Shown: in pieces, positions 39,352 to 45,039 of the stretch
Numbering within the stretch: position 1 is the first letter of the stretch
How the letters are laid out: every line of letters starts with the position of its first letter
NCBI GenBank assembly: GCA_944358865.1
Contig: CALVRV010000011.1
Location: forward strand, 1 to 45,835
Direction of reading: 5' to 3'
Source: an uncultured Bacilli bacterium
GTDB lineage: Bacteria > Bacillota_I > Bacilli_A > RFN20 > CAG-826
DNA: 45,835 bases
The notes under the pieces: generated by a model
Seen by the model: the letters and a program-made list of their open reading frames with translations, nothing else
What the model was told of the DNA's origin: nothing
Databases searched by the model: none
Position numbers and translations under genes: made by a program

Positions 39352-40469
39352 TCTATTACGATATTAAATTTTTTTAAATCATCAAATGCAAGTTGGATGA
39401 CATCATCCATATCATAATATTTATATTTTCCTAATCGACCAGAAAATAATATATTTTTTTCTTTTTCAGCAAGCTTAATATATTCTTCATATAGTTTATT
39501 ATTCTTATCATCATTTATTGGATAATAACGTTCTTTTCCTAAACTATAATCGGTAGGATATTCTTTTGTAATCCATGTTACATCAGATTTATCGTTTTCA
39601 AAATATTTATGTTCAATAATTCTTGTAAATTTTACATCACTATCAGTGTAATTAATAACACAGTTATGTTGATAAAATTCTTTATTTATTTTTTCTAAAT
39701 CGAAAGTTAATGAGCGGTATTCTAACGCTCCTAATTGATAATCAAAATATTCATCTATTGGTCCAGAATAAATAATAAATTTTGCTATTTTAGTCAAGTT
39801 TTGCTTATTTTTTAAAAAATCTGTATTTAAATTAATATCTATTCCTTCTATTAATTTATTAATCAAATTAGTGTATCCGCCAATAGGAATACCTTGATAA
39901 ATATCATTAAAATAATTGTTATTGTATTCAAATCTTAACGGTATTCTTTTAATAATAAATGGTGGTAGGTTTTCACATTTATTATTCCATTGTTTTTCGG
40001 TATATCCTTTAATTAATTTTTCAAAAATTGTTCGACCAACAAGTGAAATAGCTTGTTGTTCTAAGTTGGTTATTTCTTTTATATTTTCTTTAGATTTTTC
40101 TTCTTCAATTTTTTTAATTGCTTCATCTTTAGTTTTAACACCCCATATTTCATTAAAGGTATACATATTAAAGGGTAGATGATAGTATTGACCTTTATAA
40201 AAAGCTAATACTTGATTAACAAAATTATTAAATGGAACAAAACTATTTACATAGTCCCAAATTTGTTTTGAAGAAGTATGAAATATATGCGCACCATAAA
40301 TATGAACATCAATATTATCTCGATATTCAGTGTATACATTTCCGCCAACATGATTTCTTTTGTCTACGATTAATACTTTATAGCCTGCTTTATTTAATTC
40401 GTGTGCCATTACAGATCCATATAAACCTGCACCTACAATTAAAAAATCGTAAATTTCTTTGTTTTCCAT
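39348..40469 (-). CDS. glf: UDP-galactopyranose mutase
   Basis: The 373-residue flavoprotein is full length. FLIVGAGLYGSVMAHELN (9-26) is the FAD-binding fold and VDKRNHVGGNVYTE (35-48) the next conserved block. IYGAHIFHT (58-66), GYTEKQWNNKCENLPPFIIKRIPLR and YPINDDKNNKLY cover the substrate site. It converts UDP-galactopyranose to UDP-galactofuranose, the donor for galactofuranose in surface polysaccharides. The adjacent glycosyltransferase is a possible user. Confidence 0.95.
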   Translation of the reverse strand: MENKEIYDFLIVGAGLYGSVMAHELNKAGYKVLIVDKRNHVGGNVYTEYRDNIDVHIYGAHIFHTSSKQIWDYVNSFVPFNNFVNQVLAFYKGQYYHLPFNMYTFNEIWGVKTKDEAIKKIEEEKSKENIKEITNLEQQAISLVGRTIFEKLIKGYTEKQWNNKCENLPPFIIKRIPLRFEYNNNYFNDIYQGIPIGGYTNLINKLIEGIDINLNTDFLKNKQNLTKIAKFIIYSGPIDEYFDYQLGALEYRSLTFDLEKINKEFYQHNCVINYTDSDVKFTRIIEHKYFENDKSDVTWITKEYPTDYSLGKERYYPINDDKNNKLYEEYIKLAEKEKNILFSGRLGKYKYYDMDDVIQLAFDDLKKFNIVID

Positions 40470-40509
40470 ATTTAATATTTTATGTTATATATTGTTGATT
40501 TTAAAGCAA

Positions 40510-40713
40510 TTAATTAACTGTTTCATAGCCTGCATTTTTAACAGCATTTTCAAGGTCTTCAATTTTAAGATTTTTACCTTTTACGATAGCTTTATTATTA
40601 GTTAATGAGACGTTAACAGATTCGACGCCTTCAACACTTTCTAAAGCTTTTGTTACGTGCATAACGCAGTGGTTGCACATCATTCCTTTTACATTTAATG
40701 TAATTTCATCCAT
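40510..40713 (-). CDS. Possible internally initiated CopZ-like copper chaperone
   Basis: An ATG at 40713-40711, in frame with copA, has a strong AAAGGAGGA seven bases upstream (40721-40729, minus strand). Initiation there would give a 67-residue HMA protein with GMMCNHC and a NAGYETVN ending, the size of CopZ. This would supply a soluble chaperone and a CopA-fused copy from the same gene. It is inferred from the ribosome binding site; no expression evidence is available. Confidence 0.5.
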   Translation of the reverse strand: MDEITLNVKGMMCNHCVMHVTKALESVEGVESVNVSLTNNKAIVKGKNLKIEDLENAVKNAGYETVN

Positions 40714-43017
40714 TTTAATTTCCTCCTTTATATTATTTTTTATTCCAATGGAATCATTTTTCTTAAATTTAAATAAATTTATTGTTAAAGCATTTAAAAC
40801 TACAAATACACTTGAAAATGACATGGCAAGTGATCCGATCATTGGATTTAAAACTAAATCATTATTTAGCGGATAAAACATACCTGTTGCTAAAATAACA
40901 CCAATACAGTTGTAAAAAAACGCCCAGAATAAATTACCTTTAATTGTATTAATAGTTCTTTTAGATAACCTAATAGCGTTAACAACACCAATAAGATCAT
41001 TTTGTATCAAAACAATATCAGCACTTTCCTTAGCAATATCACTTCCTCCGCCTATTGCAATACCTAAATCTGAACTTGATAATGCAATAGCGTCATTAAC
41101 TCCATCACCAACCATAGCAACTAAGTGTTTATTATCTTTCTTTAAATTTGAAATGACATTGGCTTTGTCAGTAGGTAAAACCTCACTTATTACTTCATCA
41201 ATACCAACTTCATCCGCAATTGCTTTTGCACTTATTTTATTATCTCCAGTTAACATTATTACTCTAATATTCATTTTTTTAAGTAAAGAAATTGCATATT
41301 TTGATGATTCTTTTATTTCATCTTTAATAGCAATTATTGCTAATAATATATCGTTTTTGCGTAGATATAGAATTGTTTTACCTTGTTTTGCTAAATTATT
41401 TACTATATCTTCTTTTTCTTTATCAAGTGAGATATTTAATCCTTTTTTATTACCTATATAATATTTTTCGTTATCAATATTAGCGTATAATCCTTGACCA
41501 TCTTTAGAAACATAATTTTCTACTTTTAATTTATTATTTGCATTGTTTAAAATGCAATATTGATTAATTGCGTCAGCAAGAGGATGTTCACTCAATGTTT
41601 CAATACTATAAATAATATCAAGAAGATTTTCACTATTCTCAAATGTTATAAAGTCTGTAACAGATGGTTTACCATTAGTTATTGTTCCTGTCTTATCAAG
41701 CACAACTGTGTTAATTAAATGAGATTTTTCCAATATTTCTGCGTTTTTTATTAATAAACCGTTACTTGCGCCTTTTCCTGTCGCAACCATAATGGCAACA
41801 GGAGTAGCTAATCCTAATGCGCATGGACATGCAATTACAATTGTCGATATAGCAAAATTAAACGCTAATTCAAAACCATATCCAGCGCTTACAAAGCCAA
41901 TAAATGTTGCTAATGCAATAGCAAAGATAATTGGAACAAAATATAATGATACTTTATCTGCTAATTTGCTAATCGGAGCTTTAGAATTTGATGCCTCTTC
42001 AACTAATCTAATAATAGTGTTTAAAGAAGTATCTTCTCCAACTTTTTCGGCATTAATTTTTATATATCCGGTTGTTAAAATACTTGATGAGTAGACCTGA
42101 TCATTTTCTTTTTTAAATACTGGTATAGATTCACCTGTAATTGTCGATTCATCTATTGAGGCGGAACCATCAATGATTTTTCCATCAATTGGTATAGTTT
42201 CACCTTTTTTAACAATAACAACATCATTTATTTTAACTTTTTCAATATCAACAATTTCTTCTTTATCATTGACTAATATTGTCGCTTTTTGAGGCGCTAA
42301 ATCCATCATTTTTTCAACAGCTTTTGTTGTTCTTTTTTTAGCTAATTTTTCTAAATATTTGCCCAATGAGACTAATGTTAATATCATAGCCGCACTTTCA
42401 AAATATAAATTATGCATGTAAGTTCTAACGATATCAAAATTTTGTATGCCTAAACCATAACCTATTTGATATATTGCGTAAATTCCATATAAAAGTGATG
42501 CACTAGATCCTACCGCAATTAAAGTATCCATATTAGGCGACAATTTAAATAATCGTAAAAATCCATTTTTAAAATATTTGTTATATATAATTAAACTTGG
42601 AACAGTTAATAATAATTGTGTAAAAGCAAACGATAAAGCGTTTTTTTCTCCATCTAAGATAGGTATTTGTGGAAGCCCTATCATGTGTCCCATTGATATA
42701 TACATTAATAAAATTAAAAATAGAAAAGAAATTATTAATTTAATTAAATCAGAATCAATTTTCTTTTTGTTTGTGTTATCTAAAATTTTGTTATTGGTCT
42801 TAGTTTCGTTAGGTAAATACGCCTTATATCCTTGTTTTGATACACTTTCTTCAATTTGATTTATGCTACAAACATTTTCATCAAATTCAACATCCATTGT
42901 ATTACTTAATAAATTAACATTTACTGTTTTTGTACCTTCTAGCTTTTCTACAGCTTTTTGAACATGTGCTTGACAAGCTGCGCATGTCATACCTTCTACA
43001 TTAAATCTTTTTTTCAT
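40510..43017 (-). CDS. copA: Copper-translocating P1B-type ATPase with an additional C-terminal CopZ-like domain
   Basis: The 835-residue protein starts with an HMA domain (GMTCAAC, C12/C15), followed by TM helices and the actuator loop with TGES. IACPCALGLATP (around 395) is the CPx copper channel, VLDKTGTITNG (phosphorylated Asp near 441) the P-domain, and MVGDGVNDAIAL the hinge. After the last TM helices comes a second HMA domain from M769 (GMMCNHC, C781/C784). CopA exports Cu(I) using ATP. A C-terminal HMA is unusual; it looks like a fused copZ. The codon for M769 is preceded by AAAGGAGGA at 40721-40729, so the domain may also be made separately. The gene follows csoR by five bases. Confidence 0.95.
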   Translation of the reverse strand: MKKRFNVEGMTCAACQAHVQKAVEKLEGTKTVNVNLLSNTMDVEFDENVCSINQIEESVSKQGYKAYLPNETKTNNKILDNTNKKKIDSDLIKLIISFLFLILLMYISMGHMIGLPQIPILDGEKNALSFAFTQLLLTVPSLIIYNKYFKNGFLRLFKLSPNMDTLIAVGSSASLLYGIYAIYQIGYGLGIQNFDIVRTYMHNLYFESAAMILTLVSLGKYLEKLAKKRTTKAVEKMMDLAPQKATILVNDKEEIVDIEKVKINDVVIVKKGETIPIDGKIIDGSASIDESTITGESIPVFKKENDQVYSSSILTTGYIKINAEKVGEDTSLNTIIRLVEEASNSKAPISKLADKVSLYFVPIIFAIALATFIGFVSAGYGFELAFNFAISTIVIACPCALGLATPVAIMVATGKGASNGLLIKNAEILEKSHLINTVVLDKTGTITNGKPSVTDFITFENSENLLDIIYSIETLSEHPLADAINQYCILNNANNKLKVENYVSKDGQGLYANIDNEKYYIGNKKGLNISLDKEKEDIVNNLAKQGKTILYLRKNDILLAIIAIKDEIKESSKYAISLLKKMNIRVIMLTGDNKISAKAIADEVGIDEVISEVLPTDKANVISNLKKDNKHLVAMVGDGVNDAIALSSSDLGIAIGGGSDIAKESADIVLIQNDLIGVVNAIRLSKRTINTIKGNLFWAFFYNCIGVILATGMFYPLNNDLVLNPMIGSLAMSFSSVFVVLNALTINLFKFKKNDSIGIKNNIKEEIKMDEITLNVKGMMCNHCVMHVTKALESVEGVESVNVSLTNNKAIVKGKNLKIEDLENAVKNAGYETVN

Positions 43018-43022
43018 ATTAT

Positions 43023-43313
43023 TTATTGAAACCTCTTAAATAAATTGCTTATTTCATCAACAACTTCTTCATTACCATTTTTAATATTATCAATAATACA
43101 TGTATGAAGGTGTTTATCTAAAATATAATTCGCGCAAGACTTTATACTTTTATCTATTGCAGAAAGTTGAATTAAAATATCGTCACAATATCGATTTTCA
43201 TCGACCATTTTTTTGATTCCATTTAGCTGGCCTATTAGCCGATTTATTCTTGAATGTATTTCTTTTTTATCATTATCTGAACGTATTGTCATTTTGTTTT
43301 TCATAATTTTCAC
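43023..43313 (-). CDS. csoR: CsoR-family copper-sensing repressor
   Basis: The 96-residue all-helical protein has the Cu(I)-binding C-H-C set: C43 (NRYCDDIL), H68 and C72 (LDKHLHTC), with the same spacing as CsoR of Mycobacterium (C36, H61, C65). RINRLIGQLNGIKKMV is the conserved N-terminal helix. It releases DNA on binding Cu(I). It is the first gene of the csoR-copA operon, and a palindromic operator lies 15 bases upstream of its start. Alternative downstream starts (M4 or M8) are possible. Confidence 0.93.
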   Translation of the reverse strand: MKIMKNKMTIRSDNDKKEIHSRINRLIGQLNGIKKMVDENRYCDDILIQLSAIDKSIKSCANYILDKHLHTCIIDNIKNGNEEVVDEISNLFKRFQ

Positions 43314-43413: not shown

Positions 43414-45039
43414 ATGAAAACTATAATTATTGGTGGGGTAGCATTAGGCGCATCTTGTGGTGCTCGTTTAAAAAGATTAAGACCATTAGATGAAGTTATA
43501 ATAATTGAAAAAGGAAAATATCCATCTTTTGCTAATTGTGGATTGCCATATTATTTAAGTGGAGAAATAAATAAAAAAGAAAATTTAATTGTTACTAATG
43601 TTGAAACATTAAAAAATAAATATGGAATTGATGTTAAAATCCTTACCGAAGTTATCAATATTTTTCCTAATGATAATAAAATTGAAATAAAAGATTTAAC
43701 TAATAATAAAACCTCTTTTATGAATTATGATAATTTAGTTCTCGCAATGGGAGGAAAGGAAATAACACTAGGATTTGAAAATAGAAATAATGTTTATTTT
43801 TTAAGGACAGTAGATGATGCAATTAAATTAAAAAATAGATTATTAAATATATCATCTATAACTGTTATTGGTGGCGGATTTATTGGCTTAGAAGCAATTG
43901 ATAATATTTTAAAATTAGGTATTAAAATAAATCTTGTCGAAGCTAAAGATCATGTCTCTAATTTAGATAAAGATATGGCAAATATCTTAAAAAAATTACT
44001 CATTAAAAAAGGTGTCAACTTATATTTAAATGAGAAATTAGAAGATATTATTAATATTGATGATGATAAGGTTTTAGTAAAGACTAATAAATCTAAGATT
44101 ATAAGCCAAGCTGTTTTATTAAGTATTGGTGTTAGACCTAATATAGATTTAGCAAAATCAGCAGGAATTAAGATTGATAATTTAAACGCTATTAAGGTTA
44201 ATAAATATTTACAAACCAATTTTAAAAATATCTATGCTGGAGGAGATTTGATTGCTAATACTTGCGCGATTAACAATAAAAAAATGTATGTTCCTCTAGC
44301 GGGTTATGCAAATAAACATGGTCGCATAATTGCTAATAACATTGCAAATCTTAAATATTTTAACAAAAAAATAACTCTTGCTAGTGTTTTTCAATTTGAC
44401 AATTATACTTTTGCAAGTGTTGGTTTTAGTGAAGAACTAGCAAAAAAATATGACATTAAATATCATTGTATTTATCAAAATGCAAATTCTCACGCTACAT
44501 ATTATCCAGGTGCTACATCAATTTATAGTAAAATTTTATTTGATGATAATGGCAAAATATTAGGAGGACAAATGGTAGGTTTAAATATGGTTGAAAAACA
44601 TATTGATGTCCTATCAAATGTAATTTTAAATAACGGAACATATCATGATTTAATGGAAATAGAATCAACTTATTCACCAATTTATGGAAGCGCTAAATCT
44701 GTTTTAAATTTTTCTGGATTTATGATTGATAATATATTAAATCTTCCTTTAAAAACTATTTCTCCTATTGAAATTAAAAAGATTGAAAATGATGTTTTTA
44801 TTATTGATGTTAGAGACCCTATCTCATATCAAAAAGGTCATATTGGTCATGCAATTAATATTCCTTTAGATCAATTAGAAAAAAATATCCATTTATTAGA
44901 TAAAACAAAAACAATCTATATTCATTGTCAGGTAGGAATAACTAGCTATAATGCTTGTTGCAAATTAAAAGCATATGGTTTTGATGTTGTTAATATTATG
45001 GGTGGATATTCTTTATATAAATTAATTAATGATGATTAA
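43414..45039 (+). CDS. cdr: CoA-disulfide reductase-like flavoprotein fused to a rhodanese domain
   Basis: The 541-residue protein begins with an FAD motif (IIIGGVALGASCGARLKRL). SFANCGLPYYLSGEI places the single redox cysteine at C42, as in CoA-disulfide reductase. A second nucleotide fold reads ITVIGGGFIGLEAIDNIL, and the FAD-binding IYAGGD follows. Residues about 450-541 form a rhodanese domain with RDPISYQKGHIGHAINIP and the active-site IHCQVGITSY (C505). CoADR-RHD enzymes reduce CoA disulfides or persulfides, or polysulfide, with NAD(P)H. The divergent position next to csoR suggests a link between copper and thiol stress. Confidence 0.92.
   Translation: MKTIIIGGVALGASCGARLKRLRPLDEVIIIEKGKYPSFANCGLPYYLSGEINKKENLIVTNVETLKNKYGIDVKILTEVINIFPNDNKIEIKDLTNNKTSFMNYDNLVLAMGGKEITLGFENRNNVYFLRTVDDAIKLKNRLLNISSITVIGGGFIGLEAIDNILKLGIKINLVEAKDHVSNLDKDMANILKKLLIKKGVNLYLNEKLEDIINIDDDKVLVKTNKSKIISQAVLLSIGVRPNIDLAKSAGIKIDNLNAIKVNKYLQTNFKNIYAGGDLIANTCAINNKKMYVPLAGYANKHGRIIANNIANLKYFNKKITLASVFQFDNYTFASVGFSEELAKKYDIKYHCIYQNANSHATYYPGATSIYSKILFDDNGKILGGQMVGLNMVEKHIDVLSNVILNNGTYHDLMEIESTYSPIYGSAKSVLNFSGFMIDNILNLPLKTISPIEIKKIENDVFIIDVRDPISYQKGHIGHAINIPLDQLEKNIHLLDKTKTIYIHCQVGITSYNACCKLKAYGFDVVNIMGGYSLYKLINDD

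Follow-up and report, generated by a model that had tools for sequence, protein, structure and literature searches.

In Escherichia coli a single copA gene has two products, a Cu ATPase and CopA(Z), a free HMA chaperone of ~70 aa; the latter is the N-terminal domain, made through -1 programmed ribosomal frameshifting and an early stop (Meydan 2017 and Drees 2017, cited in PMC7558416; PMC5009743). In other systems an internal in-frame start yields the C-terminal domain of a protein separately, as for SctQ/HrcQ of type III secretion (PMC4295842, PMC8553256), and Cas11 is made from cas8 in the same manner (PMC11899642). The CopA of Archaeoglobus fulgidus has a C-terminal metal-binding domain, with HMA domains at both ends of the ATPase (cited in PMC7558416).

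We have analyzed a 45,835-nt stretch of DNA from an uncultured Bacilli bacterium (the window), in which copA also encodes an HMA domain at each end. As in E. coli, the one gene would provide a pump and a free chaperone; unlike CopA(Z), the domain in question is C-terminal and related by descent to CopZ, and in-frame internal initiation is the proposed means of making it. The translational principle, i.e. a large and a small product from each gene (here predicted from sequence), would be that of SctQ/HrcQ and Cas11, although the proteins are unrelated and the small product of copA would be a captured, formerly separate gene.

The copA gene and its C-terminal domain

The copA reading frame runs without interruption from 43017 to 40510 on the reverse strand (Table 1). 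The protein scores 552.1 bits against the curated Cu-ATPase model TIGR01511 (cut-off 397), and the CPC, DKTGT, HP, YN and MxxSS-type residues occupy conserved columns of the CopA alignment. By sequence it is thus a P1B-1 Cu+ ATPase on both counts. The gene probably forms one operon with csoR. A flavoprotein that resembles CoA-disulfide reductase and ends in a rhodanese domain is encoded divergently from this operon (43414-45039, forward strand).

Table 1. Features of the csoR-copA locus, in coordinates of the window.
Feature	Position	Strand	Basis
CsoR-type metal-sensing repressor, immediately 5' of copA	43023..43313	-	PF02583, RicR-like match
copA, Cu+ P1B-type ATPase, HMA at N- and C-terminus, 835 aa	40510..43017	-	ORF and TIGR01511
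N-terminal metal-binding (HMA) domain, GMTCAAC	42823..43005	-	PF00403
Linker, residues 754-768, predicted disordered, contains embedded ribosome binding site	40714..40758	-	pLDDT <50 and sequence
Shine-Dalgarno AAAGGAGG, 8 nt 5' of internal ATG	40722..40729	-	sequence, duplex energy, conservation
Internal ATG start codon, M769 of CopA	40711..40713	-	sequence; conserved in relatives
Internal gene in the copA frame, predicted to encode a free 67-aa CopZ-like chaperone, GMMCNHC	40510..40713	-	PF00403, CopZ model, PDB matches, AlphaFold2

A Pfam search gives two PF00403 matches above cut-off in CopA, one at each end of the protein. The second (40522-40701) lies within a complete HMA domain that begins at the ATG of M769, as had been proposed in a previous sequence-only reading of this DNA. 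In an AlphaFold2 model pLDDT falls below 50 in the linker, and a complete beta-alpha-beta-beta-alpha HMA fold starts at residue 770, with its strands and helices spread across 770-828. The domain scores 60.1 bits against PF00403 and has the HMA fold together with the CxxC motif. Its PDB matches include the CopZ structures 1cpz, 6ff2 and 2qif. The 67-aa protein falls below the cut-offs of the curated CopZ models, narrowly for NF047957 (81.2 against 85 bits) and clearly for NF033795 (58.5 against 91), and for this reason we term it CopZ-like.

The same label had been given in the sequence-only reading, and it is borne out by a tree of 155 N-terminal metal-binding domains, 125 C-terminal domains and 39 separate HMA proteins (free CopZ). 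A single branch with a support of 0.989 holds all the N-terminal domains apart from the C-terminal domains and free CopZ, which group together. This rules out the C-terminal domain as a duplicated N-terminal one. The motifs are mostly MMCxHC in the C-terminal domains, and MTCxAC or MTCxSC in the N-terminal domains. On this sequence evidence the C-terminal domain derives from CopZ.

The Shine-Dalgarno sequence and start codon within copA

The 3' end of the 16S rRNA of the source genome reads GGATCACCTCCTTTCT, so that AAAGGAGG is a full match to the anti-Shine-Dalgarno (SD) sequence, and its 8-nt distance from the ATG agrees with the good spacing noted before. The calculated duplex energy is -12.0 kcal/mol, the strongest of the 22 in-frame ATGs in copA; the start of copA itself has a weaker SD duplex (-8.0 kcal/mol). 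When the linker was recoded synonymously so as to preserve NNIKEEIK, with codons sampled according to the usage of this reading frame (GAG for 4 of 41 Glu, AAG for 7 of 67 Lys), an SD of this strength was reached in 0.55% of draws (p = 0.0055). The strength of the site depends on rare synonymous codons. The calculated probability that the internal start codon of the window is unpaired is only 0.35, which counts against its use.

An ATG in frame and 6-21 codons 5' of the CxxC is present in 104 of 118 dereplicated fusions, mainly from Bacilli, and 99 of these 104 have an SD of -8 kcal/mol or stronger, as against 4.9% of 2835 in-frame ATGs elsewhere in these genes. Because the loci sampled are related by descent, these counts exceed the number of independent cases. 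Since the count of 99 takes the best start in the range, it was repeated with the first ATG upstream of the CxxC fixed beforehand. A strong SD was then found in 91 of 118, compared with 1.5% of control windows. The distance from SD to ATG is most often 8 nt (55 of 102 fusions), and the information content around the internal start is maximal at -14 to -9. Separate copZ genes have SD sequences of similar strength (mean -10.86). The RNA near the internal SD is predicted to be less paired than that around control ATGs (0.71 against 0.44 unpaired).

The relatives were also recoded synonymously, with 1000 draws that followed the codon usage of the gene concerned. For the mainly Bacilli set the observed mean SD of -12.15 compares with -6.70 ± 0.24 on recoding, the lowest of the 1000 values being -7.52. 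The GGAG core of the SD falls in codon frames 2, 0 and 1 in 75, 23 and 4 fusions respectively, so that a constant DNA motif encodes differing linker peptides (KEE, KGG or KRR). Occurrence in all three frames, with a strength beyond that of 1000 recodings, indicates selection acting on the nucleotides. These two results also rule out a chance SD arising from a Lys/Glu linker. In a set mostly from Clostridia the ATG is present in 71 of 74 loci, with a strong SD in 83% of those against 7% of controls; the synonymous test was significant overall (-9.48 against -6.76 ± 0.29) and weak for individual loci (20% at p ≤ 0.05). Judged from these sequences, the internal SD and ATG are conserved well beyond what the linker protein or codon usage accounts for. 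The orthologues thus conserve an in-frame SD and start at a domain boundary, as in internal initiation of the SctQ and Cas11 type.

Fusion of copA and copZ, and loss of the internal start

The sequence-only reading proposed a fusion of copA and copZ, in which the intergenic region had become a linker. There is no stop codon or frameshift between the domains in the window, and the same in-frame fusion is present in about 190 relatives. In the first survey, 144 relatives were searched together with 392 phylum genomes and named records. It gave 126 unique in-frame copA-HMA fusion loci, mostly from Bacilli (118 after dereplication, including a few from Clostridia), together with 39 copA genes having a separate HMA gene next in line. 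The matching genomes among the 144 relatives and 392 phylum genomes all belong, by their record titles, to the class of the window, Bacilli. A survey of Clostridia gave 74 fused loci, mostly from that class, of which 10 were shared with the first set. The fusion is also present in the isolate Roseburia sp. 831b, on a complete plasmid where a single long CDS is annotated (WP_075681447.1), and in a plasmid assembly of Subdoligranulum variabile, whose record carries no annotation. The arrangement is common among Bacilli and Clostridia alike, and far broader than had been supposed.

Stages between an intergenic region and a linker can be seen in the relatives. At five loci (L033, L035, L050, L060 and L069) copA, a stop codon and copZ lie in one frame. 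At two others (L158 and L168) the copZ start and the copA stop overlap in the sequence ATGA, and the SD lies within the last codons of copA; a sister of these (L165) is fused. Such separate copA-copZ operons (L033, L035, L050, L158 and L168) resemble the window in gene order, in the ribosome binding site before copZ and in the proteins; they differ in the stop codon or change of frame between the genes, and have no tethered chaperone. On the ATPase tree there are at least 14 changes between the fused and the unfused state; this tree is midpoint-rooted and so does not distinguish gain from loss of the fusion.

In L072 and L096, from the relative G004, copA is broken by a change of frame near residue 460, with the SD, the ATG and the CopZ part intact. 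In L198 a homopolymer of A where copZ begins puts the HMA domain out of frame with copA and so splits the two; this is either an assembly error or a real frameshift.

A few fusions are without the internal start (L032, L034, L056, L059, L070, L137 and L199). A further, free CopZ-like gene is present in 6 of 9 start-less genomes and in 5 of 44 genomes with the start (Fisher p = 0.0013), an association that is weaker when counted by genus (p = 0.07). In the start-less genomes the free gene lies in tandem directly 3' of copA (G127, G133 and G137) or away from it (G097, G102 and G244). Two of the five free CopZ-like proteins of the start-bearing genomes are membrane-anchored. The internal start lies further upstream in G106, and before the last HMA domain in G340, G422 and G380; these four are not counted among the nine. 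We note that the start-less fusions of L056, L059 and L067 are immediately followed by a second, separate copZ gene, which in L056 and L059 is followed by a CsoR-like frame.

In two loci (L144 and L148) CopA has three C-terminal HMA domains, and the only strong SD and ATG precede the last of these. HMA proteins of 122-127 aa with an N-terminal membrane segment (L210 and L213) occur in two genomes with such triple-HMA pumps.

Among the HMA genes examined in the source genome (G000) no other CopZ was found. The third HMA gene was rejected as a missing CopZ, as it encodes a small protein whose neighbor is a Zn/Cd-type ATPase, an arrangement shared by many relatives. It is a separate 77-aa protein with the motif GIDCANC, immediately 5' of the ATPase gene (L224, contig 26, 971-1201). 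The same pairing occurs in L208, L211, L214, L215, L218-L220, L223 and L225.

Proposed mechanism, alternatives and implications

We propose that copA and a downstream copZ were joined into a single reading frame, and that the ribosome binding site and ATG of copZ would have been kept in place within the new linker. Ribosomes initiating at the copA start would then make a Cu+-exporting ATPase whose C-terminus carries a tethered CopZ domain. Initiation at M769 would give a free 67-aa CopZ, which would collect cytosolic Cu(I) and hand it to the pump. Both products would come from a single CsoR-controlled message. On the sequence data it is very likely that the one gene provides a tethered chaperone and, via internal initiation at M769, a free one. 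Initiation at M769, its rate, any control by CsoR and copper, and the action of the product as a chaperone are inferred. Ribosomes arriving from upstream could interfere with internal initiation at M769. A separate transcript from an internal promoter was considered and rejected, since a scan of 40300-41300 gave 6 matches against 6.6 in shuffled sequences, with none just 5' of the start.

The SD and ATG might instead be an unused relict of the ancestral copZ, the fused protein being the sole product. Such a relict would be expected for some time, because the fusion arose from neighboring genes, and the few fusions that have lost the start are consistent with it. We nevertheless consider this improbable. 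The SD motif persists where the linkers no longer align and across genomes of 26-63% GC, synonymous codons are biased toward it, and loss of the start accompanies a spare free CopZ gene.

Free CopZ could also arise by proteolysis of the linker, with the SD-like sequence reflecting a composition rich in Lys and Glu. The linker is indeed predicted to be disordered, and it is Lys/Glu-rich in most relatives. Yet recoding the same linkers synonymously fails to yield such SDs, the motif is found in each of the three codon frames, and the ATG keeps a constant position ahead of the first strand, so that this explanation is very unlikely.

It is slightly less probable still that the C-terminal domain binds metal in a regulatory role, as in A. 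fulgidus CopA, with only the tethered form of importance. HMA domains at both ends have been described for CopAs (Agarwal 2010, cited in PMC7558416). Against this reading, the domain groups with free CopZ, and the conserved SD and ATG would be left unaccounted for. To our knowledge an internal start has never been reported for A. fulgidus CopA.

Erasure of a stop codon or frameshift by an assembly or sequencing error is the least probable of all; the source genome is a 39-contig assembly and L198 has a homopolymer frameshift at the copA/copZ junction, but the in-frame fusion in more than 180 loci from many assemblies, including the Roseburia sp. 831b and Subdoligranulum variabile plasmids, rules out such an artefact as its source.

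Returning to a tethered and a free chaperone from one gene, it seems likely that this is widespread in Bacilli and Clostridia, i.e. that copA and copZ have fused repeatedly and the copZ start has been retained under selection, so that each cell would make both forms in a ratio set by two starts on one message. In the literature searched (open-license papers only) we found no earlier description of an internal start in copA. Many of these bacteria seem to be without a copper chaperone gene because copZ is hidden inside copA. If internal initiation occurs, a second product would have to be added to hundreds of genomes, and there would be a second route to the one-gene pump and chaperone of E. 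coli, one that needs no recoding. The series from separate through overlapping to fused genes can be traced in the relatives.
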